DNA from: Eubacterium sp. | GTDB taxonomy: Bacteria; Bacillota; Clostridia; Lachnospirales; Lachnospiraceae | DNA: 64,000 nt | Assembly (NCBI GenBank): GCA_017539165.1 | Contig: JAFYHN010000079.1 | Location: forward strand, 179,473 to 243,472 | Direction of reading: 5' to 3' | Shown: one piece after another, positions 24,954 through 43,407 of the stretch | How positions within the stretch are numbered: position 1 is the stretch's first letter | Layout: the number at the start of each line of letters is the position of its first letter | The notes under the pieces: generated by a model | What the model saw: only the letters and a program-made list of their open reading frames with translations | Database searches by the model: none | What the model was told of the DNA's origin: nothing | Program-made: the position numbers and the translations under genes

Positions 24954-26057
24954 TTAGACGTTGAATTTGAATAATACTACATCTCCGTCCTGCATTACAT
25001 ATTCTTTACCTTCCTGACGAACAAGACCTTTTTCCTTAGCTGCTGTCATGCTGCCCTCACGGATCAGATCATCGTAAGCAACTATCTCTGCCTTGATGAA
25101 TCCACGTTCAAAATCAGAGTGAATCTTACCTGCAGCCTGAGGAGCTTTTGTACCCTTTGTAATAGTCCATGCTCTTGACTCCTGCTTTCCTGCAGTCAGA
25201 TAACTGATAAGTCCAAGAAGTGTGTAACTTGCCCTGATAAGTTTATCAAGGCCTGACTCACTAAGTCCAAGATCTTCAAGAAACATCTTTCTCTCTTCAT
25301 CATCAAGTTCGGATATCTCTGCTTCCATCTGCGCACAAACAGTAAATACCTGCGCACCAGTTTCAGCTGCATATTCACGAACCTTCTTAACATTTTCATT
25401 TGAAGCGCCATCATCAGCCATGTCGTCTTCACCGACATTTGCAGCATAAATAACCTTCTTCTCTGTAAGAAGACAGTAATCACGAATCCATGCTTTTTCA
25501 TCATCATCTGATTCATTTATCTCAAATGTTCTAACAGGCTTGTTAGCTTCGAGATGAGCCTTGATCCTGTTCTGGAAATCGAGTTCCTTGGCAGCCTGCT
25601 TGTCATTTCTGGAAAGCTTTACTGTCTTTGAGATTCTTCTCTCGAGAACTTCAAGGTCTGAGAAGATCAGCTCGATATTAATTGTTTCAATATCTCTGAT
25701 AGGATCAACTGAACCATCTACATGAACTACGTCAGGATCCTCAAAGCATCTTACTACATGAACTATCGCATCACACTCACGGATATTTGCAAGGAACTGA
25801 TTACCAAGTCCTTCACCTTTTGATGCACCCTTTACAAGACCTGCAATATCAACAAATTCGATAACAGCAGGAGTTGTTTTATCTGAATCATACATCTTCG
25901 TAAGAACGTCCAGACGCTCATCCGGTACTGCTACTATTCCAACGTTGGGATCAATTGTAGCAAACGGATAGTTTGCAGCAAGAGCTCCAGCCTTTGTAAG
26001 TGAATTAAATAAAGTGGATTTTCCGACATTTGGTAATCCTACGATTCCTAGTTTCAT
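24954..26057 (-). CDS. ychF: Redox-regulated ATPase/GTPase YchF (OBG family)
   Basis: A 367-aa Obg-related P-loop protein that binds ATP and ribosomes. The GLPNVGKST loop, VDIAGLVKGASKGEGLGNQFL switch region and the C-terminal TGS-like domain (RGFIKAEIVAYDDL) are intact. The first five codons plus one base form the attachment site of the neighbouring element. The coding sequence is undamaged, but everything upstream of the start, including the AAGGAG at ~26070 and any promoter, now comes from the element. Transcription from int enters this gene with no terminator between them. Confidence 0.95.
   Translation of the reverse strand: MKLGIVGLPNVGKSTLFNSLTKAGALAANYPFATIDPNVGIVAVPDERLDVLTKMYDSDKTTPAVIEFVDIAGLVKGASKGEGLGNQFLANIRECDAIVHVVRCFEDPDVVHVDGSVDPIRDIETINIELIFSDLEVLERRISKTVKLSRNDKQAAKELDFQNRIKAHLEANKPVRTFEINESDDDEKAWIRDYCLLTEKKVIYAANVGEDDMADDGASNENVKKVREYAAETGAQVFTVCAQMEAEISELDDEERKMFLEDLGLSESGLDKLIRASYTLLGLISYLTAGKQESRAWTITKGTKAPQAAGKIHSDFERGFIKAEIVAYDDLIREGSMTAAKEKGLVRQEGKEYVMQDGDVVLFKFNV
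26042..26057. repeat. Attachment core, integrase side (attL)
   Basis: CGATTCCTAGTTTCAT, identical to 42024-42039. It spans the ychF start codon and the next four codons plus one base. Flanking bases diverge on both sides apart from shared T-richness. Confidence 0.85.
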
Positions 26058-26207: not shown

Positions 26208-27338
26208 TTAGATAACTTTTAATGCCTCCGATATACGTACCATTTCTTTACACTTTTCTTCATCAGTGGTATGCACATATCGATTCATAGTGATGGAAAT
26301 ATTAGAATGTCCAAGTATTGTCTGTAAGGTCTTCGGTTTCATACCTGCTTCAATACATCTGGTAGCAAATGTATGACGAAGCACATGCATGGAAAACCTC
26401 GGGATTCCAATACGATCACACAGTTTAAAAAGCATCGTATCATATGCACTATTCTTTACAGGAGTTCCTTTTCTGCATAAGAACACGTAATCAGTCCACT
26501 CTAGCAGAATAATTTTGCACATAGCATTTTTCAGCTTCTGCCTGCGAAGGATTTCTATTGCTTCATCAGTCAGAGGAACGCTACGATAGCCTGACTCACT
26601 CTTGGGCGGTCCTACTCTCCACTCGCCTACCGAGTAACGATATTCCATAGTCTGATTCACGTGTAATACTCTTGATTTAAAATCAATATCACTCCATCTA
26701 AGTCCAACCATTTCACCGGTCCGAAGTCCAGTCTGGAGCAAAAACAAATATTGATTCTCGTAGGCATTTCCCTTAATACCTTTTACAAACTTCTTCTGCT
26801 GATCAATGGTTAAAGCTTCTTTTTTAGATACCGCTTTGCCAATATTCGCTTTCACAGTCTTATTACACGGGTTCTTTAAGATTACATCATTTTGAACTGC
26901 ATAATCAAGCATATTATAAAGAGCAATCCTGGCCTGATAAATGGTTGATGATGAATATCCTTCTTCTGCCATCTTATTCATAATCTGCTGACAGGAAAAT
27001 GGCTTTACATCCTTCAATCTCATCTTCCCTATTACCGGTGCGATATTTTTCTCATATCTCTCACGATAGTTTCTGATAGTATTTGGACGAACTGTCTTTT
27101 CTTTTAAATCAATCCAGTAAAGATACCAATCCTTAACACAGATTTCTCTATCGAAAGCACAATCACCTTGCTCATCAGCCAATTGAGAATCAGCTAACCA
27201 TTGTCTACACTCCTGTAATTTGGGAAATACTTTTTGTCTCCGTTTACCATTTCTGTCCGTAAAACGAGCCAGATACAATGAGTCGGAGCGCTGGCTTATC
27301 CCCTTTCCCAGCTCTTTTCCTTTTATATCTTTACCCAT
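26208..27338 (-). CDS. int: Tyrosine recombinase (integrase)
   Basis: A 376-aa Tn916/phage-type integrase with an N-terminal arm-binding segment (AP2-like, YLARFTDRNGKRRQKVFP), a core-binding SAM-like domain (~70-165) and a catalytic domain. R206 (TGLRTGE), H318 and R321 (HVLRHTF), H344 (LGHSN) and Y354 are all in place, so it should be active. AAAGGAG lies eight bases before the ATG. It points out of the element toward ychF, 150 bp away. A hairpin terminator lies immediately upstream, between xis and int. Confidence 0.96.
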   Translation of the reverse strand: MGKDIKGKELGKGISQRSDSLYLARFTDRNGKRRQKVFPKLQECRQWLADSQLADEQGDCAFDREICVKDWYLYWIDLKEKTVRPNTIRNYRERYEKNIAPVIGKMRLKDVKPFSCQQIMNKMAEEGYSSSTIYQARIALYNMLDYAVQNDVILKNPCNKTVKANIGKAVSKKEALTIDQQKKFVKGIKGNAYENQYLFLLQTGLRTGEMVGLRWSDIDFKSRVLHVNQTMEYRYSVGEWRVGPPKSESGYRSVPLTDEAIEILRRQKLKNAMCKIILLEWTDYVFLCRKGTPVKNSAYDTMLFKLCDRIGIPRFSMHVLRHTFATRCIEAGMKPKTLQTILGHSNISITMNRYVHTTDEEKCKEMVRISEALKVI

Positions 27339-29454: not shown

Positions 29455-29676
29455 TATCTTCACCTCCTTTCACTTAACACTCAAATATCAGGGGTTTTAA
29501 CAACCATAATTTTATAATTTGTTATACCCACATTCACCCAACAAACTTTTTGAAAGGTGTTTTACAACCATTTTGATCATTTTTCCCAAAAAAATTCATT
29601 CCTAACAGTGCCTTATATTAATCGCACGGAAATACAGCTGTTTTACAACCAAAAAGATATAATTTTAAAAATAAAA

Positions 29677-29711
29677 AACAGCGAAGAGATTTCTGTTATC
29701 TCCTCACTGTT
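29677..29711 (-). terminator. Terminator downstream of the defence operon
   Basis: AACAG-GA-GAGA (from 29677) pairs with TCTC-TC-CTGTT (to 29711) with small bulges. On the minus strand it is followed by TTTTTTATTTTT. It would end transcripts from the defence operon before they reach the rep genes. Confidence 0.65.
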
Positions 29712-29743
29712 CGTGAATTTAACTATGTAATTCATTTAAAGAA

Positions 29744-30055: not shown

Positions 30056-31366
30056 TTAATATCTCCTTTTTTCAGGGATCAAATTGATAGGTACATTTAT
30101 CTTTGCCTTTGCAACACAGATATTATTTTTCACCAAATAACACTCAGTATAATGCGGCCCTCTAAACACAGAATGTTCCCTGTGAGATGATACCCCCTTG
30201 ACTATTTGTCCACGTATATCATCTCGAGATTCTGCTTCTTTTCCAACATTTCTCACCTTCCAATATATATCATATGGTTGTGGACAATCTGTCGATATAA
30301 TCATAAATTCTAAGCTTTTGTCAACCTTCAAAAAACCATCTGCTTTTATAATTCGAGAAAGCAGATTAGGGCGCCAGCCATCTTGTTTTACTTCACAATC
30401 AATTTTCAAATTATAAATTATATCAACAGGAAATTTATCTCTTATAAACTCTTCTGTATTTCTATATTCTTTAACACTATAATCACGCACTTCTTTGTCG
30501 ATTTTAGGAAAATCATGTCCAAGAATTTCTCGAAGAACTTCATTTATACTGTCATCACTCGCATTATAAATTTTTTCATATGCTTGCTTAGCCTTTTTAA
30601 CAAATCTTCCTTTTCCCTTATCTGAAACATGCTGGTTACTCCCTAGTGCAAACCAATAACTCTGATTTGAATCTTCCTCTTTTAAAAATCCAAATAAATC
30701 TAACAGTATCTTCCTGTAGTCATAGTAAGTTGCATCTTCAAAACAATCATTATTCTCAAAGAACTCTGCAACAAGTGTATCTATTAACAATCCACTAAAT
30801 GAGAAACCAACATTATTTTTCCATGTTCTTAAAATACCTGTAAAGTTTCGAAAAGCACCATTGGACGAATCATCAATATCATCACATGCCTCTTGTTCCA
30901 GCAACGGTTTTGTAATCTTCCAACTACCACCATCATGAGTATCAGGATAAACAAAAGAAGTATCATCGTTTATAAATGCAGGTACAAGCTCTACCGTATA
31001 TGCATCAAAATCTATAACTACAACTTGACCATCTCCGCTTATTTCGGTTTTAGGATATCTTTCTTTTAAAACATTTTTTACTTCTTGAAGTAATTGCGAC
31101 TGCCCCCCACTCTCATATCCATTGTATTTGTCATAAATCTCGTCAGGAAGAACAAACAATAAATCAAGGTCACTGCTTCCTTTAATAGCTGTTTTTCGAC
31201 CCACAGATCCGACAATATACATATGCTCGGACTCTTCCCCTGTAACATCGTAGAATTCCTTATTAAGTTTTTTAGCTATCTCTGCAGATGTAGTCCTCAT
31301 AGCACTATCATCAAGTTTTATCTTTTTACAAAAATTCTTAAAATCACTGCTTAGTGACAACTTCAC
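30056..31366 (-). CDS. CD-NTase (SMODS) with C-terminal AGS-C sensor domain
   Basis: 436 aa. The N-terminal half is a cGAS/DncV-like nucleotidyltransferase: GS at 53-54, the DLD metal-binding pair at D66/D68 and the third acid in VELVPAF (E126) are all intact, followed by the helical OAS-type domain (PDTHDGGSW). Residues ~300-436 match the AGS-C sensor described with SMODS enzymes (KVRNVGKEAE, RGQIVKG, HYTECYLVKNN). Such enzymes make cyclic or linear oligonucleotide alarms on infection in CBASS. The start is a GTG at 31366, 16 bp after the 2TM effector. It is the last gene of the defence operon. Confidence 0.88.
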   Translation of the reverse strand: MKLSLSSDFKNFCKKIKLDDSAMRTTSAEIAKKLNKEFYDVTGEESEHMYIVGSVGRKTAIKGSSDLDLLFVLPDEIYDKYNGYESGGQSQLLQEVKNVLKERYPKTEISGDGQVVVIDFDAYTVELVPAFINDDTSFVYPDTHDGGSWKITKPLLEQEACDDIDDSSNGAFRNFTGILRTWKNNVGFSFSGLLIDTLVAEFFENNDCFEDATYYDYRKILLDLFGFLKEEDSNQSYWFALGSNQHVSDKGKGRFVKKAKQAYEKIYNASDDSINEVLREILGHDFPKIDKEVRDYSVKEYRNTEEFIRDKFPVDIIYNLKIDCEVKQDGWRPNLLSRIIKADGFLKVDKSLEFMIISTDCPQPYDIYWKVRNVGKEAESRDDIRGQIVKGVSSHREHSVFRGPHYTECYLVKNNICVAKAKINVPINLIPEKRRY

Positions 31367-31382
31367 CCTCTCCCTTCAATTT

Positions 31383-31946
31383 TTAAGCTTTTATATTCCC
31401 CTTTAACGACTCAGGTAAAAATCTATCAATTTCCCCTTCTGTAAATGTATAATCTTTATCAACTTCTAATCTTTTTTTTGCTCTTGTAACCGCTTTATTA
31501 TTTGTTGCTGGTGCAGAAATAAATATTTCATTTGATTCACTCATTACCAGTTCATACTTTTCCTGAATCTCATCTGCCGGTTTTTTCATCATATGTATTT
31601 CTGCAATTATACTTAGCATTTTATTCCTTACAACAAGAAATCTGTTAGCATAATCCTTGTTTTCTTTTGCCATACTTTTTAAATCAAAACTTTTTAAATA
31701 TGCTGTAATAAAAAGCGTTGTAAATGATAAAAGAATAGTTATCACTTTTATCCATAGCTTATCTTGATAAAAAGTCGAAAAAATTCCACAAGAAGTGAGA
31801 GCCGCCGAAAAAATATTAATAGTCTCAATTAATTTATATTTTTCTTCGTATATTTCAGCCTGTTGTTCTTGTATCTTGTGAGTCCAAACAACACTAGCAT
31901 AGTTTTGCCTTACTAAATCTAATAGTTTCTGATATTGTTCTTTCAT
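31383..31946 (-). CDS. SLATT-domain 2TM effector
   Basis: A 187-aa protein with two adjacent membrane helices (residues ~42-62 and ~66-86) flanked by long helical, charged cytoplasmic segments. This is the SLATT layout (SMODS- and SLOG-associating 2TM). SLATT proteins are predicted membrane-pore effectors triggered by the nucleotide made by a neighbouring CD-NTase, giving abortive infection. Here it is flanked on both sides by CD-NTase genes. AAGGAGG precedes the ATG by five bases. The family call rests on topology and context rather than a conserved motif. Confidence 0.8.
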   Translation of the reverse strand: MKEQYQKLLDLVRQNYASVVWTHKIQEQQAEIYEEKYKLIETINIFSAALTSCGIFSTFYQDKLWIKVITILLSFTTLFITAYLKSFDLKSMAKENKDYANRFLVVRNKMLSIIAEIHMMKKPADEIQEKYELVMSESNEIFISAPATNNKAVTRAKKRLEVDKDYTFTEGEIDRFLPESLKGNIKA

Positions 31947-31956
31947 TAGTCCCTCC

Positions 31957-32778
31957 TTAATTAGCCATGAAGTTTAATATACTTCCCAAAACATCCCATC
32001 CTTTTTGTGAATCAACTTGCAATCCACTACCTGGTGCCTTAATACTTGGTTTAATCATACCAAACATCGAAATCTCATTGTAATAATCTAACAAGGCCTC
32101 TTCATATTTTTTCTGTGATACAACATGTTTCTCACCATCTCTAGTAAAACGCCAACCTCCTATAGCTTCATAAACAAATGAATCAATAAGAATTCCAGAT
32201 AAATGATAGCTCGAAAAATTGTTATCCCTTATATAACGGATATGCTTACAAGTCGCATACAGCAGGCCGTTTGTAATGTTATCTTTCTGTTTCATAGCCT
32301 TTTGTTCTGCTTTGGGATTAGTTGTCATCCAGTTTCCGCCCATGTGTGTGTCTGGATACTTATATATCTCATCATAATTCCAGTAGTTCCGAACCTTGAA
32401 TGCAGGCAATATTTCAAACTTCATCCCATCCGAAAATTTCACAACGACAACTTGTCCGTCACCTCTAATATCAGTATTCGGATATGTGTCTAAAATGGCA
32501 TTCTTAACTGCTTGAAGAAGTCTAGACTGACCATTCCCATTCATAGTAGAAAAACGATTATATTCACTTTCTGGAAGTTGAATAAGCACGTCCAAATCAC
32601 TAGTATTTATTGCAGTCCCTCTTCCATATGAACCAACATAAATACTATGATCAACATCACTACTACTGTTCCAAAATGACTGATTTACTGATTTTGTAAT
32701 TTTATGGTATCTTAAAGAAATTTTGCTTCTAGTACTATCATCTATTTTATGTTGTTCCTTAATTACACGTGAACTAAT
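31957..32778 (-). CDS. CD-NTase (SMODS) without sensor domain; probable ATT start
   Basis: A cGAS/DncV-like nucleotidyltransferase of about 273 aa: GS (49-50), DLD (D61/D63), the third acid in FEILPAF and PDTHMGGNW are all present. It ends before any AGS-C domain. Between the preceding in-frame TAA and the TTG encoding the Leu of DLD there is no ATG, GTG or TTG, yet the reading frame encodes a normal N-terminus. The best initiation codon is ATT at 32778-32776, eight bases after an AGGAGG and overlapping the TAG of hsdR. Starting at the TTG (32595) would delete the GS loop and one catalytic Asp environment, so I reject it. Confidence 0.75.
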   Translation of the reverse strand: MSSRVIKEQHKIDDSTRSKISLRYHKITKSVNQSFWNSSSDVDHSIYVGSYGRGTAINTSDLDVLIQLPESEYNRFSTMNGNGQSRLLQAVKNAILDTYPNTDIRGDGQVVVVKFSDGMKFEILPAFKVRNYWNYDEIYKYPDTHMGGNWMTTNPKAEQKAMKQKDNITNGLLYATCKHIRYIRDNNFSSYHLSGILIDSFVYEAIGGWRFTRDGEKHVVSQKKYEEALLDYYNEISMFGMIKPSIKAPGSGLQVDSQKGWDVLGSILNFMAN

Positions 32779-35700
32779 CTGAATCCCCTCCTTCCATGTT
32801 TATAACATAATTCAAACTTTCTTCTGCCTCAATCATTCCTCCAACATTATAAAACTTCTCATAATACGCTTTTAATCTTTCAATTACACGTGCTTTGACT
32901 TCAGCACGTTGTCCACCTCCAAACCTTGAAATAGGTGGCAATATTTTATCGATGTCAGTTCCTGTTGTTTTTAATTCACCCAATCGGAATGCATACTCCA
33001 TGAGCCTTCTAGCAGCTTCTTCTTGAAGCCTTTCTTCCTGAATAATAACTACCAATTGTTGCTCACGCTGAGCCGCAACGTAGTTATTCCATTCAGTCAT
33101 AATGTCATCGACATCATTGATACCTGCAATGAAGTTCTCGATAAGAGCTTTCTTACTTCTAAGTTCAGGACTTGCAGCAATCGCTTTCTTGATGGTGACA
33201 AGTACTTCCTTGTCCTCACAATGGCTGTCATGATACTTCTTAACCAGCATGAGAATATAATCAATATTGATTTCAATCTGCTTGATAAGTTCAATCTCAA
33301 AGACGATATCGTCATCAATATTAACCGCTGTATGCTCTTCACGCTTACGTTTCCACTCATCACGAAGATCCTGATACTTTCCAAGGTAATCCTGCATATC
33401 ACGGTCTGAAAGGATTTCTTTCCCTGCAAACTCGTCAAAGGAACTAAGGAGGTTTCTCATTCTAAGGATTGCACCAAACAGTGAGATAAAAGCCTTCTGA
33501 TTGGTTTCACCTTCAATACGAGCTTCTTCTACTGGGAACTTTGTTGTAAGTTCTTCAATCATATCAACATAGCCCGGATGCGGTGTATCATCTACTCCGG
33601 TGTAACCGTAGTAGTAATCCTTGAAACTCTGCATCAGAACGATGCCGCCTGCATCTTTATCTCCAAATAAGGAAATAGCTGAATCCACCCTCTTCTGAAG
33701 ATTACGGAAGCAAACAATATTACCGAAAGTCTTAATAGAATTGAGGATTCGGTTCGTTCTTGAAAAGGCCTGGATTAACCCATGCATCTTCAAGTTCTTA
33801 TCAACCCAAAGAGTATTCAGCGTTGTTGCATCAAAACCGGTAAGGAACATATTTACTACGATAAGAAGGTCAATCTCCTTATTCTTCATTCTAAGAGATA
33901 CATCCTTATAATAATTCTGGAACTTATCGCTGGATGTATCATAATTTGTATTAAACATCTTATTGTAGTCATCAATAGCAGCTTCCAAGAAGTCTCTGCT
34001 TGACTGATCAAGAGCTGATGTATCCTCTGAATTTTCCTCTCCTAGCAAACCATTATCTTCTTCCGCTTCCTCTTCATTTGCTGCGAAGCTAAAGATTGTA
34101 GCGACACGCAGCTTCTTAGATGGATCCGCCTGCATCTGCTTCTTAAACTCTTCGTAATAAAGCTTTGCCATCGGAACAGATGCCACAGCAAAAATAGAAT
34201 TGAAACCACTGAGTCTTTGCTGTTGCTTAATCTCTTCAACTGTTCCTTGCTTTGAAGATGCCACCTCTTCAATGTTAATCAAAGAGTTATAAACGTATGA
34301 CTTATCTCCTCTATAGGTCTTTCGATCAAAGTTATCAAGGATATACTTTGTGACCATAGAGATTCTCTGAGGTGCCATCATAGCCTTTTCTCTGGCAATA
34401 TCCCACACCTCTTCATCTTCGATGTTGTCATCAATGTCCATCGTTTTTATGTAGTCAACGCGGAACGGAAGAACGTTCTTGTCATTGATAGCATCTACAA
34501 TAGTATAGGAATGAAGCTGATCTCCAAAGGTCTGCTCTGTTGTAAAGAAAGTCGTCTTTCTCGTACTTCCGATATTTGTCGGGAAGATCGGAGTTCCTGT
34601 AAATCCAAACAAATGGTACTTCTTAAAGTGCTTTACGATAGCTGCATGCATATCGCCAAACTGACTGCGGTGACATTCATCAAAAATAATAACCACATGC
34701 TTGTTGTAAATCTCATGCTCCTTATTCTTCTTGATAAATGTAGCCAGCTTCTGAATGGTGGTAATGATAATCTTATACTCATGATGAACACCATTCTTAT
34801 CCTTATCTTCCAACTGTCTCTGAAGGATTGAAGTCTTCGTATTGCTATTGGCAGCTCCCTTTTCGAATCTGTCATACTCCTTCATGGTCTGATAATCCAG
34901 ATCTTTACGGTCTACAACAAAGAGCACCTTGTCAATGTAAGGCAGATTAGAAGCCAATCTTGCTGTCTTAAATGAAGTCAGGGTCTTTCCGGAACCTGTT
35001 GTATGCCAAATGTAACCACCGCCGGAAATATCCCCATACTTTTTATAGTTATTTGCAATTTCAATACGGTTAAGAATACGCTCCGTAGCAGTAATCTGAT
35101 ATGGACGCATAACCATAAGCATATTCTCGGAAGTAAAGATACAGTACTTCGTGAGGATATTAAGGATCGTATGTCTTGCAAAGAAAGTCTTCGTAAAGTC
35201 TACAAGATCAGCAATAACTCTATTCTTTGAGTCAGCCCAATAAGATGTGAATTCAAAGCTATTGCTTGTCTTACCCTTCTTTGTCTTCGCTGCATTTGCA
35301 TCTTTGATGGCGTTAAATCGTGTACTATTTGAGTAATACTTGGTATTTGTTCCATTCGAGATTACAAATAACTGTACATACTCAAACAATCCGCAGCCTG
35401 CCCAGAAGCTGTCTCTCTGATATCTGTTAATCTGGTTAAACGCTTCTCTGATAGCAACGCCACGTCTCTTAAGTTCCACATGAACAAGTGGAAATCCGTT
35501 TACAAGAATTGTCACATCGTAGCGATTATCATGCTTTGCACCATCAGCGGTTCCGATAACATACTGATTGATAACCTGAAGGAAATTATTGTGGATGTTC
35601 TTCTTGTCAATGATGGTAATATTTTTCGTACTACCGTCATCTCGCTTAAGAACCTGAACATTATCCTCCTGGATCTTTCTCGTCTTCTCAACAATGCCTT

Positions 35701-35995
35701 CATTCTGATTCGCGATGGATTCATTAAAGAATCTATCCCATTCAGCATCAGAGAATTGATAATCATTAAGAATCTCGAGGCGTTTGCGCAAGTTTGCAAT
35801 CAAATCTGATTCCTGATGAATTTTAAGATACTCATACCCCAATCCGCCTTGGCCATTTTCCCCGGACAGTAGTTTTATAAACTCTGCTTCAAGTGCTGCT
35901 TCTGACTGGTAGCTTTCAGAGCGAGACTTTGATGGCTCATACTCTGTAACTACTGTATTTTCATTTGTCTGTGCGACTATATTAAAATACGGCAC
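32774..35995 (-). CDS. hsdR: Type I restriction enzyme R subunit
   Basis: 1073 aa, the motor and nuclease of a type I system that cuts unmodified DNA after ATP-driven translocation. The N-terminal PD-(D/E)xK nuclease core ([21 protein letters not shown]), Walker A HTTGSGKT, the DECH box and helicase motifs FTGTPIF and [13 protein letters not shown] are intact, with a helical C-terminus. The start is a GTG at 35995 (MPYFNIV) with AGGAGG eight bases upstream; the GTG at 36004 overlaps that site. The gene follows hsdS by 16 bp and its TAG overlaps the putative ATT of the next gene. Confidence 0.95.
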   Translation of the reverse strand: [1073 protein letters not shown]

Positions 35996-36011
35996 AGCTA
36001 ACACCTCCTCC

Positions 36012-37250
36012 TTATATTGCTTCTTTAAATGCTAATATCTTATCTCGATAATATTCATATTGTTTTTGTCTGGCTTCGATTTCAGCTGGAATACCTTTAG
36101 TAATATCATTACATAACACATCAAACCGATCTAAAATATCTACAATTTCCTTCTGCTTATCAATACTAATTATCGGAACCATAATCTTCGAAAGCTTTGG
36201 CCCAGTTGTCGTTGCCCTGGTTGTTACAGCAGCATATCTAACAATAGTCTTTCTTACTTCATCTGAAGAAAAAAAGTAAGCACAGAACTTAGGTAAAAGA
36301 AGATTTGTTTTAGGCCTAGCTCTTAATACAAATCCACTAAACACGCAGTCCTTAATATCATCTACCAACGTACTGGACATTCCTATATCTTCTTTTGTTT
36401 CAGATGTTCTTGTAAAAAACACATCTCCCTTTTGAGCACTAAACCGCGAGATTTCATCATCCGACACATCCACTAACCCAATTACATCTTTTTTTTCTAA
36501 ATATCTCTTATTGTATACATCGGAGAAATTAATTATCGGTTTCCCATGACCAAACGCTGCCTTTTCTTTGCTCAACCCATTACGTATATCAAATAATTCT
36601 CCGACAGACATAAACGGAACATCACTCTCAGAAAAATCCAGTAACTTATTCTTATAATATTCGTACTGTACCTTACGAGCTGAAAGCTCCGCTGAAAGCT
36701 CCGCTGAAAGTAGCGTGAACCCGTCCAAAATATGGACAATTTCACGCTGCACCTCCAGAGGAGGTACAGGGATCCTTATGCTTTTAATCGAAGGAATACT
36801 TGCATGTACTACCTTGCTCTTAACCTTTCCTTTACTTTTCTGCATTCTTGCGTCAGATGTAGATAAAGCATATGACAAATATTTAGGGTTTTGCTGATGC
36901 TTAAGAACTACAATATCACCACCTGCAATACAGCGTTCATTTCCGACATATGCACATGATTTTGAAATATCTTCGACACTTTCACCTGTTATGGCGAAAA
37001 GAATGTCTCCATACTCAAAATATTTTGGTGAAGAAAGGAATTCTTCTCGGGTATGAGAAACACACTCGTCAAACCAAATTCCATATTTCGTATAAATCTC
37101 ACCATACCTAACACATGGAACCCCGTCATCCGTTACTTCAGTTCTTTTTACTCCAGTCCCCCTATAAATATCCGTAGCTAATTCTCCAATTGTTTTGTAT
37201 TCTACGCCATCAGGGCATAATTCTCTTATCAAATAATCTAATTTTGACAT
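36012..37250 (-). CDS. hsdS: Type I specificity subunit, two target-recognition domains
   Basis: 412 aa. TRD1 covers ~1-150 and is followed by a conserved coiled coil (VPPLEVQREIVHILDGF) and a repeat of LSAE; TRD2 covers ~215-360 and the second coiled coil ends in EARQKQYEYYRDKIL. HsdS sets the bipartite DNA target of the HsdM/HsdR complex. The central 12-bp repeats (separate entry) determine the spacing between the two TRDs. It starts in a TAATG overlap with the half-size hsdS gene. Confidence 0.93.
   Translation of the reverse strand: MSKLDYLIRELCPDGVEYKTIGELATDIYRGTGVKRTEVTDDGVPCVRYGEIYTKYGIWFDECVSHTREEFLSSPKYFEYGDILFAITGESVEDISKSCAYVGNERCIAGGDIVVLKHQQNPKYLSYALSTSDARMQKSKGKVKSKVVHASIPSIKSIRIPVPPLEVQREIVHILDGFTLLSAELSAELSARKVQYEYYKNKLLDFSESDVPFMSVGELFDIRNGLSKEKAAFGHGKPIINFSDVYNKRYLEKKDVIGLVDVSDDEISRFSAQKGDVFFTRTSETKEDIGMSSTLVDDIKDCVFSGFVLRARPKTNLLLPKFCAYFFSSDEVRKTIVRYAAVTTRATTTGPKLSKIMVPIISIDKQKEIVDILDRFDVLCNDITKGIPAEIEARQKQYEYYRDKILAFKEAI
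36679..36714. repeat. 12-bp tandem repeats in the hsdS spacer
   Basis: GCTGAAAGCTCC twice (36679-36702) plus a diverged third unit (36703-36714), encoding LSAE units between the conserved helix and TRD2. This is the position of the TAEL-type repeats of EcoR124-like HsdS. Confidence 0.85.
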
Positions 37251-37846
37251 TACTCATCCTCCTTAATTGTAAAATCAAAGAGTTGCTGTCTGTAGTAGTC
37301 ATATTGCTTTCTTCTTGCTTCCAATTCTGCTTCCAATTCTGCTTCCAATTCTGCTTCCAATTCTGAAAACTTATTCAACAGATTTACTATCATTTCCTGA
37401 ATTGGAATAGGTGGAAATGGTATTGGTATTTTATTTAGATTTTTTTGATTAAGTTTCGGTTGCGCTGCTCCTGAAATGTATGGAGACAAGTCGATAGAAT
37501 TCAAAAAATGTTCAACATACTGTTGCGTTATAATTGAATCAAATTTTAAAATATGCGCATGATTATTTACCCAGTTTTTTCCGGATATCGAAAAAGCAAT
37601 TGGTGTATTTCTTGCCAAAAGATTGGCACCATCTTCTGAAACTAACAAATAATCCCCATCAAAAATGTAATCACTAACATAATCGACTATTCCTGATGCT
37701 CCATAATATGGATATACTCCGGCCTCTCTATTTCCACTTGTAACCGGACGCCTCTCGCTATCGCAATTCTCTGATATCTGATCAAGTGTCTTTAATTCAA
37801 CGCCTCTCGGACATAATTCATCAATCATTTTTTGTAATCGTGCCAT
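37250..37846 (-). CDS. Half-size HsdS with one target-recognition domain
   Basis: 198 aa: one TRD (~1-140, YPYYGASGIVDYV and NNHAHILK are typical), the conserved PIPFPPIPIQEMIVNLL segment and a single coiled coil ending RRKQYDYYRQQLF. It contains four LEAE units encoded by perfect 12-bp repeats. Single-TRD S proteins can dimerise to recognise palindromic split sites, or may pair with or displace the full HsdS. The ATG is five bases after GAGGTG and close to the hsdM stop. Confidence 0.88.
   Translation of the reverse strand: MARLQKMIDELCPRGVELKTLDQISENCDSERRPVTSGNREAGVYPYYGASGIVDYVSDYIFDGDYLLVSEDGANLLARNTPIAFSISGKNWVNNHAHILKFDSIITQQYVEHFLNSIDLSPYISGAAQPKLNQKNLNKIPIPFPPIPIQEMIVNLLNKFSELEAELEAELEAELEARRKQYDYYRQQLFDFTIKEDE
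37317..37364. repeat. Four perfect 12-bp tandem repeats in half-size hsdS
   Basis: GCTTCCAATTCT repeated four times without change, encoding LEAE units in the coiled coil. Perfect repeats of a codon-multiple length can expand or contract by slippage without frameshift. Confidence 0.92.
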
Positions 37847-37848
37847 AG

Positions 37849-39411
37849 TTACACCTCGATTTCTGCAATGATGCTATCTATTTCATCACGGATTCTTTGT
37901 TCTTTTTGTACAATCTCCTTTATCTGCGAATTGAGCAAAGTTATATCTATCTTCTCCCGTGTGTCTTCTGCCTCAACATATGCGCTAACCGATAAATTAT
38001 ACTCATTACTTGTTATTTCTTCATATGATGCAGAATAAACTCTATAATCAACATTCTCTCTGGATTTATACTGTTCAACAATAGTATCTATATTTTCTTC
38101 TGTCAGCTTATTATTATTTGTAACTTTGATACATTCATTAGTTGCATCAATAAAGAGAACATTACTATCCTTCTTTCCCTTCTTCAAAACCATAATGCAG
38201 GTTGCAATTGAGGTTCCAAAGAAAAGATTGCTAGGTAACTGAATCACACAATCAACATAGTTGTTATCTACCAAATATTTACGAATCTTCTGTTCAGCCC
38301 CACTACGATACATAATGCCAGGGAAGCAAACGATAGCAGCTGTACCATCATTTGCTAGCCAACTTAACGCATGCATAATAAACGCCATATCTGCTTTACT
38401 CTTTGGTGCTAATACACCTGCCGGTGCAAAGCGAGGATCATTGATGAGCAACGGATTCTCGTCACCCTCCCACTTAATTGAATACGGAGGATTTGAAACG
38501 ATAAGTTCAAAAGGCTCATCATCCCAATGCTGTGGCGCAGTAAGAGTGTCTTCACAAGCAATGTTAAACTTATCAAAGCCCACATCATGAAGGAACATAT
38601 TAATTCTACAAAGGTTGTATGTCGTAATGTTGATCTCCTGCCCGAAGAATCCATTTCTAACCTTATCCTTACCAAGGACCTTTTCTGCCTTCAAAAGAAG
38701 CGAACCGGATCCACACGCAGGGTCATATACCTTATTTACCTCTGTCTTTCCCACAGTTCCGAGTCTGGTAAGAAGTTCAGAAACATCTGCCGGAGTAAAA
38801 AACTCTCCACCGCTTTTGCCTGCATTCGAAGCATACATGGTCATCAAATACTCATATGCATCGCCGAATGCATCAATGTCATGGTTCTTTACATCGCCAA
38901 GATTCATTTCTGCTACGCCCTTAAGCAACTTTGCGAGTTTTTCATTTCTCTTAGCAACTGTGGAGCCAAGCTTATTGCTGTTTACATCAAAGTCATCAAA
39001 TAATCCTTCAAAATCGCTTTCAGACTCGCTACCCTTAGCTGATTCCTCAATATGACGGAATACAGTCTCCAGCGTCTCATTAAGGTTCTCATCATCGTCA
39101 GCCTTTGCTTTTACATTACAGAACAACTCACTCGGAAGGATGAAAAATCCCTTTTCCTGCACAAGATCCTTTCTTGCGGTCTCTGCCTCATCATCTGACA
39201 TCTTGGCATAATCAAAGCCTGTATTACCGGCCTTCTCTTCGCCTTCATTTACATAATTAGTAAGATTTTCGGAAACATATCTGTAGAACATTGTGCCAAG
39301 GACATAGTTCTTGAAATCCCATCCGTCTACAGCTCCTCTTAATTCATCTGCAATCGCCCAAATAGCGCGGTGTAATTCGTCTCTTTCCTGTTCTTTCTTT
39401 GTATCAATCAT
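37849..39411 (-). CDS. hsdM: Type I modification methyltransferase
   Basis: A 520-aa N6-adenine methyltransferase. It has the helical N-terminal HsdM domain (~8-165), SAM motif DPACGSG (230-236), catalytic NPPY (307-310) and a C-terminal helical region that contacts HsdS. AAGGAG lies seven bases before the ATG. It forms the canonical M-S-S-R order with the downstream genes and is 60 bp after the atypical HsdM-like gene. Confidence 0.95.
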
Positions 39412-39471
39412 TTTGATTCTCCTTTTCTGGATATAGTATTTCCACTCTAATCAACTGTCCCATAATATGGA

Positions 39472-40815
39472 CTATGAAAACAGTTTTATATTTTTACTTT
39501 GGATGCTTAATTCTTCTAATCTTTTATAGCAGCGATCTAATTCCTCGTTTATCTCAGAAATAGGTCTTAACTCGATTTTCTCTTCCGCATCCATGTATCT
39601 TGAAATTGACCAATCGCCTACTTCCATTACCTCTGCGTTTGGTACTGTAAACGATATTCCTTCAACAACCTTCCGGTTCTCAAGAATGTCATGTAACTGA
39701 GCCTTATTCTCTTCAGTAATATATGCGTCATTTCTTCTCTCACGAGTAACAAGCATCGAACCATCTACAAACAATACATCTTTATTACCTGCTTCAATAA
39801 CAAGCATCGTCGTATTGATCATAGTGCTGTTATAAACCGGTGGTAACGCTACAACAGCCTTCAGCAAGCCCTCTTTTATCAGATTCTTGCGGAAATTTGA
39901 TAACGCCTTTGACTGGCCAAACATAAATCTCTGTGGAACGATTACAACCAAACGTCCACCATCTTCCATATAATCAATGCCTGCAGCGATGAACAATGCT
40001 TCCATTTCTTTGCAGGTATCTGAATCCATCCACTTGTTTGCTCTGTGAAGCTGATAACCTGCAAGTTCCGCACGAGGTCTCATTCCAAATGGAATATCCA
40101 TGACAACCTTGTTTGCAAATCCGCCCATTCCCATAGCAGTACTGTCTTCCAACATCATCTCGCAGTCTACACCACACAGAATCATATATAACGAAGAAAC
40201 CTGCAGCGCATCTATATTAAGATCGACTCCATACAGCTTTATATCCTTCTTTCCTTGGATACACTTCATCGCTGAATAACCATATCCAATGGCTCCATCT
40301 AAAACAGTATCTCCGTCCTTGATATCTGCGCCAATACTCAGAAGATCTGCTACGGCATTACTGGATATTTTCTCCGCCTTATCTCTTCCATCTTTAGAGG
40401 CGTAATACAGAATTTGCTGAACATATGGAGCGTATCCATCTTCGTCGATTTCAATCTGCGCCGTTGCCGCTACGATGTCCAAGAACGCCTTCTTCCATGA
40501 TTCTTCCTCTGAGCGATACGTTGATAAGACATCCGTAAATAATCCCTCTTTTGCATGATAGGTCTCTTCCAGCACCTTTGATGCATTTCGGATAATGTCT
40601 ATATCACTTGATGATGTTGGATGATATAAAACCTTTGTAAGTGCAACTACAGATGACATATACTCCGGATTCATGCAGGCATTTTCTTCAACCATCTTCT
40701 TCAATCCCATTACGTAAAGCATACATCCAACGTAATTAGAAGCATCCATTCCTGCGTTATGCCAAATATTTGCGATATTTGAAATGTAGTTTTCAATCTT
40801 TTTATAATCAGCCAT
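39472..40815 (-). CDS. HsdM-like methyltransferase with atypical catalytic motifs
   Basis: 447 aa, organised like a small HsdM: helical N-terminus (~1-150), Rossmann core and C-terminal tail of charged helices. The SAM loop reads DGAIGYG (173-179) rather than DPACGSG, and the catalytic tetrad reads DIPF (240-243, followed by GM) rather than NPPY/F. The fold glycines are kept, so SAM binding is possible, but base methylation may be lost or changed; DxPFG is also seen in some RNA methyltransferases. It is paired with a half-size HsdS-like gene one base upstream and precedes the canonical hsdM. Confidence 0.8.
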   Translation of the reverse strand: MADYKKIENYISNIANIWHNAGMDASNYVGCMLYVMGLKKMVEENACMNPEYMSSVVALTKVLYHPTSSSDIDIIRNASKVLEETYHAKEGLFTDVLSTYRSEEESWKKAFLDIVAATAQIEIDEDGYAPYVQQILYYASKDGRDKAEKISSNAVADLLSIGADIKDGDTVLDGAIGYGYSAMKCIQGKKDIKLYGVDLNIDALQVSSLYMILCGVDCEMMLEDSTAMGMGGFANKVVMDIPFGMRPRAELAGYQLHRANKWMDSDTCKEMEALFIAAGIDYMEDGGRLVVIVPQRFMFGQSKALSNFRKNLIKEGLLKAVVALPPVYNSTMINTTMLVIEAGNKDVLFVDGSMLVTRERRNDAYITEENKAQLHDILENRKVVEGISFTVPNAEVMEVGDWSISRYMDAEEKIELRPISEINEELDRCYKRLEELSIQSKNIKLFS

Positions 40816-40816
40816 A

Positions 40817-41404
40817 TTACTTACCTCCCAATACGGTGTTTAACTTCTCCTTTTCAAGAGAGATGATCTGTTCCATGATTTGTTCTTTTTCGCAAAGATT
40901 CTTGTAATACTGTGCCACCTGATCCTGCTCTTCAATAGTGAGAAGCTTAATCTTTGCCTCTTTTACCTTACCAATAGTAAGCATCGGAACCTTTGCTCCG
41001 CTAACCATTCCCATAACCTGTCTTAAATAAATATCCGAATTGCAGAAGGTTGCCAGATATTCCGATAAAACATTCTTACCGGTGTTGCGGATAATGATGC
41101 AGAAAGAAGTAATTAAAAGTCCTTCATCTTCCTTGGTTACATATGCTGCATCATATGGCGAGGAAAGCTTAACTACGACGTCACCTTCTTTTGTAAGTTT
41201 CTTTTCATCAAACTCTGTTTTGTAATCAACCTCGTATAACTCTTCCTGCTCGATCTTTCCAGCCTTAATAGCCTTTGGCGGAATAACCTTTACTGTGCCG
41301 ATAGCTCTTTCATTTTTCTTTTCATCTGCTTCTATTCTTGATGTAATCTGACCTCCAATAAAGGATAATCCCTTAATATCACTTAATTTTACTTGTTTGT
41401 TCAT
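40817..41404 (-). CDS. Half-size HsdS-like specificity protein
   Basis: 195 aa. It has one TRD-like domain (~10-135, with VVVKLSSPYDAAYV and SFCIIIRNTG), then the conserved SGAKVPMLTIGKVKEAKI and TIEEQDQVAQYYKN coiled coil. It is the first gene of the operon, with the promoter at 41503-41531 and a GGAGG seven bases before the ATG at 41404. It is presumably the DNA-recognition partner of the atypical HsdM-like protein, which begins two bases after its stop. Confidence 0.83.
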   Translation of the reverse strand: MNKQVKLSDIKGLSFIGGQITSRIEADEKKNERAIGTVKVIPPKAIKAGKIEQEELYEVDYKTEFDEKKLTKEGDVVVKLSSPYDAAYVTKEDEGLLITSFCIIIRNTGKNVLSEYLATFCNSDIYLRQVMGMVSGAKVPMLTIGKVKEAKIKLLTIEEQDQVAQYYKNLCEKEQIMEQIISLEKEKLNTVLGGK

Positions 41405-41465
41405 TTTATATCCTCCGTAGTATTGATATATTTTTAAATGTTCAAAACCGGTTTGTAAAAGAAAT

Positions 41466-41564
41466 GGCACGGTACCAGTGCCTCTTCCTTTTTGATGATC
41501 TCATATTATCATAATGTTCTTTACTCGTCAATAACATTTTTAGAAATATCGGTAATGTTATTGA
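41466..41564 (-). promoter_or_regulatory. Defence-operon promoter with two dyads
   Basis: On the minus strand TTGACG (41526-41531) and TAATAT (41503-41508) are 17 bp apart, near consensus. TCAATAACATT (41528-41538) and AATGTTATTGA (41554-41564) form a perfect 11-bp inverted repeat overlapping the -35. A second palindrome, GGCAC-GGTACCA-GTGCC (41466-41482), lies in the leader. Both look like operators, but no regulator gene is encoded nearby. Confidence 0.8.
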
Positions 41565-41871
41565 TATATTTTTTTATGTTCTTTTTTGATTACCTACAAA
41601 TTAGTAAATAATTAATTAAACAAAGCTACAAAATAAAATATGCAACCTCATCTAATCACTATTATTACTTTTCAAACGGGTAAATAAATAGAAAATATAA
41701 TAGTTTGTATTTTTGCTCCCTAACTCTATTTTTTTTATAGTTACGGAGTAAAAATAAAACGACCCCTTTCGAATCAGTCATAATGCAGGAACTACATTCC
41801 TATCCTTTGACATTCTCAAAAGGGATTGTCTAGTATTAGGGCTCATATTGATATAACATCTATTTTCATTT

Positions 41872-42023: not shown

Positions 42024-42039
42024 CGATTCCTAGTTTCAT
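42024..42039. repeat. Attachment core, distal side (attR)
   Basis: CGATTCCTAGTTTCAT, identical over 16 bp to 26042-26057 at the ychF start. On the minus strand it reads ATG AAA CTA GGA ATC G. Confidence 0.85.
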
Positions 42040-42198: not shown

Positions 42199-43407
42199 TC
42201 AATTATTAGCTAAACCCTGCCATTCTTCTTTAGTCATGCAATTGACATGGCCTATTCGTTTTTCACGCATCAACGGCACATCGACATTCTCAGATTTCCA
42301 TTGAAACTTAAAGCCACATTTTTCCTGAACCCTTTTCGACTTGTTATTGCCCTCAAAATATCCGCACCATACTTTCTGCATTCCGCAATCCTCAAAAGCG
42401 TGGCGAAGCAATTCCTTTACAGCTTCCGGCATAATGCCCTGTCCCCAGAAAGGTTTTCCAAGCCAATATCCCAGTTCGCATTCATCGTCCCTTTCAGTCA
42501 GATCCGTATATCCATTCAGCTTTAGCTCAATGGCACCAATAGCCTTTTCGTCTTCCTTCAGACAGATGGCATATGCTTCTTTACCATTAAAGACATTCTT
42601 TATCACTTCAAGACTTTCCTCTATACTCTGATGTGCCGGCCATCCCGCGATTGGTCCAACATCCGGATCGCTGGCATACTTAAACAGATCATCTGCGTCA
42701 CTATCTTTCCAACGTCGCAGGATAAGTCTGTCTGTCTCCAATTTTTTCTCAAATGAACCTGTAATATCATCACTCATATTACACCATTTATTCCAATGAA
42801 TCCTATCCTGCGGATTAATCTCTACCTGTTTAACCGGCGCAACACCTTCTAATGGTTTTCCAATTCCTATAAAACATGGCATGAAATAATCATCCGGATA
42901 TTTAAGAACTTCTCTTACATGTTCACTCTCATCACCAAGCGGTATTCTAAGATTACATCCCAATCCCTCCGCAGTAGCAGCAAGAAAAATGTTCTCAATA
43001 CAGCACCATATTGACGCAAATCCATTTAGATGAGATACATTTTCCGGATGCAAAATATCCGTCTTTTCCTTAAGTAGAGGAATTATGACAGCTGATGCCT
43101 CAAAAAGCATTCGATATTGTTTAGGTACAGCATTGCGATAACACGCCTGTTGAAGTTTATCATTCAAATTCCAATCCTTAAGAAGTTGCTCCATATCAGC
43201 ATCCGATATTCCCTTAGGAATACAATCAAGAAGCTCAGCAGTGACGCCCTTATCTGTTATCACTATAAAATGCCAATCTCTCATATGGTCATTTGTCGGC
43301 GCCTTAAGACCTGCTGATATTATTTTTTCAAGTACTTCTTTTGATATTTCTACGTTCTCAAAATCTCGAATAGTCCTTCTTTTATTTATTGCATCAAATA
43401 GTTCCAT
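42199..43407 (-). CDS. Nitroreductase-GNAT acetyltransferase fusion
   Basis: 402 aa, two domains. Residues 1-205 are an FMN-dependent nitroreductase (AINKRRTIRDFENVEI and SAGLKAPTNDHMRDWHF at the FMN site, LGCNLRIPLG near the end). Residues ~225-400 are a RimJ/RimL-type GNAT (ETDRLILRRWKDSD, LGYWLGKPFWGQGIMPEA acetyl-CoA loop, GNNKSKRVQEKCGF). Each half has its usual full length, so it is a real fusion and not an overlap. Its substrates are unknown; coupling reduction of a nitro or quinone compound to N-acetylation of the resulting amine is a plausible detoxification role. Confidence 0.87.
   Translation of the reverse strand: MELFDAINKRRTIRDFENVEISKEVLEKIISAGLKAPTNDHMRDWHFIVITDKGVTAELLDCIPKGISDADMEQLLKDWNLNDKLQQACYRNAVPKQYRMLFEASAVIIPLLKEKTDILHPENVSHLNGFASIWCCIENIFLAATAEGLGCNLRIPLGDESEHVREVLKYPDDYFMPCFIGIGKPLEGVAPVKQVEINPQDRIHWNKWCNMSDDITGSFEKKLETDRLILRRWKDSDADDLFKYASDPDVGPIAGWPAHQSIEESLEVIKNVFNGKEAYAICLKEDEKAIGAIELKLNGYTDLTERDDECELGYWLGKPFWGQGIMPEAVKELLRHAFEDCGMQKVWCGYFEGNNKSKRVQEKCGFKFQWKSENVDVPLMREKRIGHVNCMTKEEWQGLANN

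Follow-up and report, generated by a model that had tools for sequence, protein, structure and literature searches.

A close described counterpart of the locus analysed here is the island that joins a type I restriction-modification (RM) system to DarTG2, in which RptR is encoded at the head of a type I RM operon that also holds a second defence module, and recognises direct repeats at the promoter from which it is itself expressed (PMC12255303). Our locus, an apparent minus-strand operon in a stretch of 64,000 nucleotides (the window; Eubacterium sp., contig JAFYHN010000079.1, positions 179,473 to 243,472), likewise has candidate regulatory genes ahead of a type I RM system and a second defence module, and repeated boxes at its promoter, where binding is putative. 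However, the RptR repressor is a helical protein of 9 kDa whose site is 6 bp long (TAGCTA; PMC12255303), whereas the first two window genes, S1 and M1, encode an HsdS/HsdM-like pair and are accompanied by a 20-bp box.

C proteins provide autogenous RM control by an operon-borne regulator, as is proposed here, and one is encoded upstream of the type I hsd operon of Mycoplasma gallisepticum (PMC12707154). They bind via helix-turn-helix (HTH) motifs (PMC12707154), whereas neither S1 nor M1 matched an HTH or small helical repressor family in Pfam or NCBIfam. With CfrBI, AhdI, and LlaDII a methyltransferase acts on its own promoter, again as proposed here, but these are type II systems in which the protective methyltransferase doubles as the regulator (PMC12707154); in our locus the pair is type-I-like and distinct from the complete RM system next to it. 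CapK/CapS resembles S1-M1 as a two-gene regulatory cassette ahead of diverse immune operons, although its kinase-like protein and STAS-like DNA-binding repressor belong to other families (PMC13373217). Half-HsdS proteins, which have a single target recognition domain (TRD) like S1, dimerise, read palindromes, and have been likened to homodimeric transcription factors, but the dimers described are engineered methyltransferases, not natural regulators (PMC6158711). No HsdS/HsdM-like pair acting as a natural regulator was found in the literature searched, mostly without full texts. In known cyclic oligonucleotide-based antiphage signalling systems (CBASS) with a two-transmembrane (2TM) SLATT effector (PADLOC models and plasmid examples) the cyclase adjoins SLATT, as it does here; in the window, by contrast, two different cyclases share one effector, behind hsdR.

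We propose that S1-M1 derives from a restriction system and now autoregulates a defence operon that is mobile and swaps its cargo, a reading that we regard as probable but well short of secure. That S1-M1 and the boxes form a conserved unit is strongly supported by the comparison of loci, and a regulatory role for the pair moderately so. An integrative element of about 16 kb would carry one defence operon of three exchangeable layers: a control cassette, in which S1-M1 follows a promoter flanked by the 20-bp boxes; a type I RM system; and a cargo slot after hsdR, filled here by a CBASS with two cyclases around one SLATT effector.

The S1-M1 pair and its boxes

S1-M1 was recovered in 3/397 genomes of the family (E ≤ 1e-60), 2/295 of the order (E ≤ 1e-50), 2/29 of the genus of Pseudobutyrivibrio xylanivorans MZ8, and 1/196 of the class (E ≤ 1e-28), the last being the window's own; a contig scan gave five loci. 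Collapsing duplicates (L016 and L008 with L020, genome G009; L017, L009, and L023 with L021, G096; L049 with L019, G600, same coordinates; L086, a second copy of L085, G686) left the window, L018–L022, and L085, a lower bound, as the peptides seeding the contig scan do not match L085. The G009 genes lie on two contigs (L020 ends in hsdS; hsdR and the genes after it are on L050) and are assumed to form a single operon. The pair directly heads a type I RM gene set in all seven loci, with three small genes intervening in L085. Three kinds of RM system follow it, in the window and L018–L020 (HsdM 85–93% identical to that of the window), in L021/L022, and in L085; across these kinds (window, L022, L085) HsdM is 27–30% and HsdR 24–26% identical, so that they are distantly related rather than unrelated. 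L085 is the most distant locus (S1 54%, M1 35% identity). Among the other six, S1 is 67–92% identical, whereas HsdS is more variable (L018 and L019 27–52% identical to that of the window; L020 62% over 193 residues). In L022 (11350–21149) two hsdM genes, several partial hsdS-like genes, and a tyrosine recombinase gene precede hsdR, suggesting an invertible specificity shufflon. G686, a genome of three contigs, has two copies of the S1-M1/hsdR-M-S locus (L085/L086) on a single contig, separated by about 90 kb, through duplication or an assembly artefact.

Neither S1 nor M1 was found in IMG/VR; beyond IMG/VR, M1 was searched in plasmids and phages, with only distant HsdM-like matches, and S1 in plasmids, with none. 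As a linkage control, 22/299 family genomes had an HsdR match at E ≤ 1e-250, and 18 were examined (all except G000, G255, G281, and G028). One was the S1-M1 genome G009 (HsdR 94–95% identical); no S1-M1 was seen beside the other 17 HsdR genes (61–79% identical), with hsdM and upstream sequence visible in only 11.

The 20-bp box, GAACATNNNAAAANATATCA, accompanies S1-M1 in two or three copies around the promoter. In the window the pattern matches twice, both times in the leader (boxes A and B, Table 1), and not at all in 100 shuffles; the 18/20 direct repeat that the two boxes form was reached by 0/300 leader shuffles. The order box A, −35, palindrome, box B is near-invariant in six loci (the window and L018–L022), with box starts 138 bp apart (136 in L020) and the palindrome start 39 bp from that of box B in 6/6. 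A 72-bp leader core is identical at 63–71 bases in all 15 pairs of these loci, whereas identity at fourfold-degenerate sites is 28.6–44.3% for M1 in 14 pairs (77.4% for L021–L022) and 37.3–59.4% for S1; recent transfer therefore does not explain the conservation of the leader. In the L085 leader TTGACA-17-TAAATT is surrounded by three boxes, which lie at −201, −130, and −42 relative to the ATG; the outer two are 159 bp apart, 21 bp (two helical turns) more than 138. The boxes have been kept there while most of the remaining leader differs and the palindrome is absent, which isolates GAACATNNNAAAANATATCA as the element that follows S1-M1. A promoter pattern lies between the outer boxes in 5/7 leaders (not in L021 or L022).

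Exact boxes in five S1-M1 genomes numbered 2, 2, 2, 2, and 6 (three in each of two copies), and all 14 lie in S1 leaders. Among 165 family genomes six had a match: three S1-M1 genomes with paired boxes, and three others with one match each, all inside other open reading frames. Allowing two mismatches, with a slightly narrower pattern in eight genomes, gave 7 matches beyond the 8 leader boxes, against 6 for the reversed control, and no box pair was found in IMG/VR. By these counts the box is close to private to S1-M1 operons, which argues for an operon-encoded reader. The position of box A, upstream of the −35, means that the motif is able to work at the DNA level. Repeated, conserved, operon-specific sites at the operon's own promoter, as known for C proteins and RptR, are thus present. 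A LexA-type site (SOS box), considered because the box starts with GAAC, is ruled out: the box has no GTTC half, and exact boxes in the genome are confined to the leader. For S1, ATG 41404 is a likelier start than GTG 41470, because the sequence in front is the conserved leader, whose frame to the ATG shifts by 1 nt between loci (box B at −39 in the window, L018, and L020, at −40 in L019, L021, and L022); the same shift, in 3/6 loci, rules out a conserved leader peptide.

S1 has no Pfam match (Methylase_S is not reached), but matches PADLOC Specificity_I (E 1e-14) and, in a PDB search, the S subunit of EcoKI (E 2e-5); an HsdS-type TRD is recognisable by sequence, and S1 is probably a sequence-specific DNA binder with one TRD. 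M1 aligns to HsdM over the methyltransferase core, and its residues D173, G177, G179, D198, and D224, which we take to be the motif I and acidic residues that bind S-adenosylmethionine (SAM), are invariant in 7/7 loci. With its HsdS-like single TRD, its conservation where the HsdS subunits vary, and the near-private boxes, S1-M1 is the likely reader of the box.

Several observations count against a regulatory role for the pair. The main objection at the sequence level is that the box has only weak dyad symmetry, and not the clean inverted repeat expected for a homodimer with a single TRD. The sole clean palindrome, GGCAC-N7-GTGCC, is absent from the L085 leader, and the genome has two further instances of its bipartite pattern, for which reasons we demoted it as a type-I-like target of S1-M1; about two 5+5 inverted repeats are expected in the leader by chance and two are seen, although an arm with at least 4 GC arose in only 1/300 shuffles. 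Motif IV of M1 reads DIPF in six loci and NIPF in L085, deviating from (N/D)PP(Y/F), which makes catalysis uncertain: M1 may methylate slowly, bind SAM only, or be inactive. The best PADLOC match of M1 is mad2, the methylase of the methylation-associated defence system (MADS; E 5e-21), although HsdM matches mad2 more strongly (3e-58). The hairpin predicted in the leader is a rival or an additional layer and could be a separately acting attenuator. Finally, only seven distinct loci are available, all from one family, and the search for stray boxes covered five S1-M1 genomes, all but those of L018 and L022.

Alternatively, S1-M1 may be a second type-I-like methyltransferase with one fixed target, orphan or auxiliary, the boxes being bound by another factor. 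In its favour, type I RM systems commonly include M and S subunits that lack an R partner, and M1 has retained both the putative SAM-binding residues and, in motif IV, D/N and P-F. We nevertheless consider this alternative unlikely, given that box and pair occur together in 7/7 loci, that an ordinary orphan methyltransferase needs no conserved promoter boxes, and that the confinement of exact boxes to S1 leaders in the genomes searched is a poor fit to a host-wide regulator. For the autoregulator that we favour, the half-HsdS S1, whose DNA-reading domain is fixed, and the HsdM-like, putatively SAM-binding M1 would form a complex resembling the core of a type I methyltransferase. This complex would act on the boxes that flank the promoter of the pair, tuning the whole operon autogenously, e.g. 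with strong expression on entry of the element into a new cell and weaker expression once S1-M1 accumulates or the boxes are methylated. From sequence we infer box binding by S1-M1, methylation, the sign of regulation, SAM binding by M1, and CBASS activity. More tentatively, and with doubt outweighing belief, the half-HsdS plus HsdM-like core may have been repurposed as an epigenetic transcription switch that reads or writes box methylation at its own promoter, gating the mobile defence operon (restriction with an exchangeable abortive-infection module) by settlement of the element or by phage-disturbed SAM or methylation.

The slot behind hsdR

The operon recurs in a second genus, in P. xylanivorans MZ8 (L019), as S1-M1-hsdM-hsdS-hsdR-CDN1-SLATT-CDN2 plus a Mrr_cat gene, CDN1 and CDN2 being the two cyclases (CD-NTases, cGAS/DncV-like nucleotidyltransferases). 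Protein identity to the window is 77% for S1, 59% for M1, 85% for HsdM, 96% for HsdR, 79–81% for CDN1, 84% for SLATT, and 82% for CDN2, and the DNA is 83% identical over 6.0 kb from the 3' end of hsdS through hsdR to CDN2. The nine-gene order with its hsdR/CD-NTase junction, whose recurrence the original prediction had proposed to look for, is therefore found elsewhere as regards the junction, which is not confined to this genome, and eight of the nine genes, L019 having a single hsdS.

At this junction the stop codon of hsdR (TAG, 32776–32774) and an ATT start of CDN1 (32778–32776) overlap by one base, in agreement with the overlap originally noted. The ATT lies 8 nt behind a GGAGG (GGAGG-N8-ATT AGT TCA), the window sequence has no in-frame ATG, GTG, or TTG before a TTG inside the catalytic motif, and in the translated stretch the alignment to a PADLOC cyclase model begins at residue 3, at the CDN1 N terminus. 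L019 has the same GGAGG-N8-ATT AGT TCA, with one base between the hsdR stop and the ATT, whereas a cyclase relative in L012 has ATG in its place (GGAGG-N7-ATG AGT TCA); among 7 cyclase genes compared, only the two hsdR-linked copies have ATT. CDN1 thus very probably starts at an ATT that two genera have in common. Escherichia coli genes that start with AUU include infC and pcnB. The ATG AGT TCA of L012, set against ATT AGT TCA in the window and MZ8, makes a frameshift fusion with HsdR less likely than an ATT start, and a truncated pseudogene is ruled out by the near full length of CDN1 relative to PADLOC cyclase models and by its L019 counterpart. The ATT start predicts weak initiation and would further keep the first CBASS cyclase low; the fixed stoichiometry of HsdR and CD-NTase first suggested by the overlap is not borne out.

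Other genes occupy the slot in L018 and L050 (G009), where hsdR is followed, 21 nt on, by genes for a SEFIR/TIR protein and a DUF2971 protein (L018:10872–13229 and L050:4882–7240; Pfam scan of the L018 copies, the L050 proteins being judged the same by sequence), a candidate two-gene defence module. HsdR is 96% (L018) and 94–95% (L050) identical to that of the window, and identity at fourfold-degenerate sites of hsdR is 271/366 (74.0%) for L018, 197/359 (54.9%) for L019, and 55.5% for L050. The hsdR 3' end of the window and L019 shares an EGGD-encoding ribosome site that is not in L018 or L050. Since the window hsdR is closer to that of the SEFIR locus L018 than to that of the CBASS locus L019, these comparisons suggest that cargo is exchanged at the 3' end of hsdR. 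Parts of the CBASS also occur elsewhere: CDN1+SLATT without CDN2 on plasmids of Lactiplantibacillus plantarum and Enterococcus faecium and, within the family, in L012 and L013, and SLATT+CDN2 without CDN1 on a Paenibacillus larvae plasmid. In a third family genome (L014) the cyclase beside SLATT stands between CDN1 and CDN2 in type. Because the slot varies and these pairs occur apart from the operon, the CBASS looks like plug-in cargo rather than a fixed partner of the RM operon. In L012 (2319–7409) CDN1+SLATT lie 15 nt behind a methyltransferase gene and a gene for a 918-aa N6_Mtase/Eco57I-like protein, a second RM-CBASS junction of a different type. In L015 (9071–10388) two reading frames share the sequence of a CDN2-AGS_C relative, and the stretch examined gave no match to SLATT or CDN1.

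The original prediction had also envisaged a layered response, restriction and CBASS being mechanistically coupled such that failure of restriction triggers the membrane effector. The recurrence of order and junction in two genera and the confinement of the ATT start to hsdR-linked cyclases speak for it. Obligate layering is nonetheless not upheld, as other cargo stands behind 94–96% identical HsdR in two loci and the cyclase-effector pairs occur on plasmids without this RM system, and we judge such coupling quite improbable. Ordinary packing of a defence island, i.e. chance assembly with no functional link beyond co-transcription, would fit the varied genes, some defence-like by eye only, that adjoin the 17 more distant HsdR relatives of the linkage control, but is more improbable still, as the S1-M1/box unit recurs before three kinds of RM system and its leader is strongly constrained. 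Least probable of all is control by RNA, with a 5' hairpin (A-tract, GGCAC/GTGCC stem, U-tract) as an attenuator and the boxes and S1-M1 incidental, for although the hairpin is predicted in 6/6 folded leaders (shuffle z −1.2 to −3.3) and the palindrome is in all six, L085 keeps the boxes without it, box A would lie outside a transcript from the promoter, no Rfam family matched the leader at E ≤ 1, and the palindrome, invariant save for one loop base, leaves no covariation to read.

Operon layout and the integrative element

Family searches confirmed the nine consecutive minus-strand genes and their predicted identities, in operon-like order: S1, M1, HsdM, half HsdS, HsdS, HsdR, CDN1, SLATT, CDN2 (Table 1). 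We infer that they lie on a single transcript.

Table 1. Features of the operon and its element (window coordinates)
Feature	Position	Strand	Basis
Box A, GAACATAAAAAAATATATCA, upstream of −35	41562..41581	-	Leader comparison; box-pattern scan
Promoter, TTGACG-17-TAATAT	41503..41531	-	Promoter scan
Palindrome GGCACTGGTACCGTGCC in leader; RNA hairpin with A/U-rich extension, possible attenuator	41466..41482	-	Six of seven S1-M1 leaders
Box B, GAACATTTAAAAATATATCA, in 5' leader; repeats box A directly at a distance of 138 bp	41424..41443	-	Leader comparison
S1, half-HsdS-like protein, single TRD, conserved between loci	40817..41404	-	PADLOC, PDB searches
M1, HsdM-like protein, putative SAM-binding residues kept, motif IV DIPF	39472..40815	-	Pfam N6_Mtase E 1e-21
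HsdM, type I RM modification subunit	37849..39411	-	TIGR00497
S2a, half HsdS	37250..37846	-	Pfam, PADLOC
S2b, HsdS	36012..37250	-	Pfam, PADLOC
HsdR	32774..36004	-	Pfam HSDR_N, SWI2_SNF2, EcoR124_C
CDN1, SMODS-family CD-NTase, ATT start overlapping hsdR stop	31957..32778	-	Pfam, start comparison
SLATT_4 2TM effector	31383..31946	-	Pfam, PADLOC
CDN2, SMODS CD-NTase with AGS_C sensor domain	30056..31366	-	Pfam, PADLOC
Intrinsic-terminator-like stem, 15 pairs, with T run	29676..29712	-	Terminator scan
Tyrosine integrase of element	26208..27338	-	Family search
Putative attachment (att) repeat CGATTCCTAGTTTCAT, 16 bp, 5' end of ychF	26042..26057	.	Direct-repeat search
Second copy of putative att repeat	42024..42039	.	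Direct-repeat search

The type I RM genes (39411..32774) encode HsdM, HsdS, and HsdR with methyltransferase, TRD, nuclease, and superfamily 2 motor domains, all above the Pfam cut-off and, for HsdM and HsdR, also above that of NCBIfam; the C-terminal domain of HsdR is EcoR124-like (type IC; EcoR124_C E 8e-69). S2a and S2b (36012–37846) have unequal numbers of 4-residue repeats (ELEA x3–4, AELS x2) between helical parts, presumably resembling the spacer repeats of type IC HsdS, in which case they would shift target spacing. The operon does not qualify as MADS by NCBIfam scores (HsdM 54 vs 720; S1 25 and S2b 44 vs 400; no MADS match for M1). The cyclases, read with what we take to be the CD-NTase catalytic motif GS...DxD...E, and the adjacent effector have the sequence features of CBASS (SMODS and SLATT_4 matches), although the NCBIfam CBASS equivalogs score below cut-off (93 and 88 vs 200); we read the module as a CBASS in which one effector serves two cyclases.

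The terminator first placed at 29677–29711 is supported, its stem being by far the longest among 7 terminator-like sites (6.2 expected; next longest 6 pairs). The near-consensus promoter predicted at 41503–41531 is present as a 9/12 match and its position is common to related S1-M1 leaders; by itself the match is weak evidence, as 44 such matches were seen in the 12.9 kb scanned and 47.6 expected, and such a scan allows internal promoters within the operon.

The 16-bp repeats bracket the integrase gene, a DnaC-like (IstB-like ATPase) gene, two RepA_N genes, and the operon, so that the integrative element originally proposed is probable, at about 16 kb and mainly devoted to defence. RepA_N/ParAB-like genes seem, by eye, to adjoin S1-M1 also in L018, L021, and L022 (Pfam was run on the window genes only). 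Just outside the element, the window encodes a nitroreductase domain fused to a GNAT acetyltransferase domain (42199–43407).

For few mobile type I RM systems or lethal modules is it known how they are safely switched on after arrival in a new host (RptR and a C protein are examples), and if our reading of S1-M1 is true, the DNA-recognition parts of restriction enzymes can become transcription factors. The operon is also one whose last module varies while control and restriction stay, the ATT-started cyclase offers a case in which throttling of an abortive-infection enzyme at translation can be tested, and the 20-bp box can serve as a marker for finding such operons.

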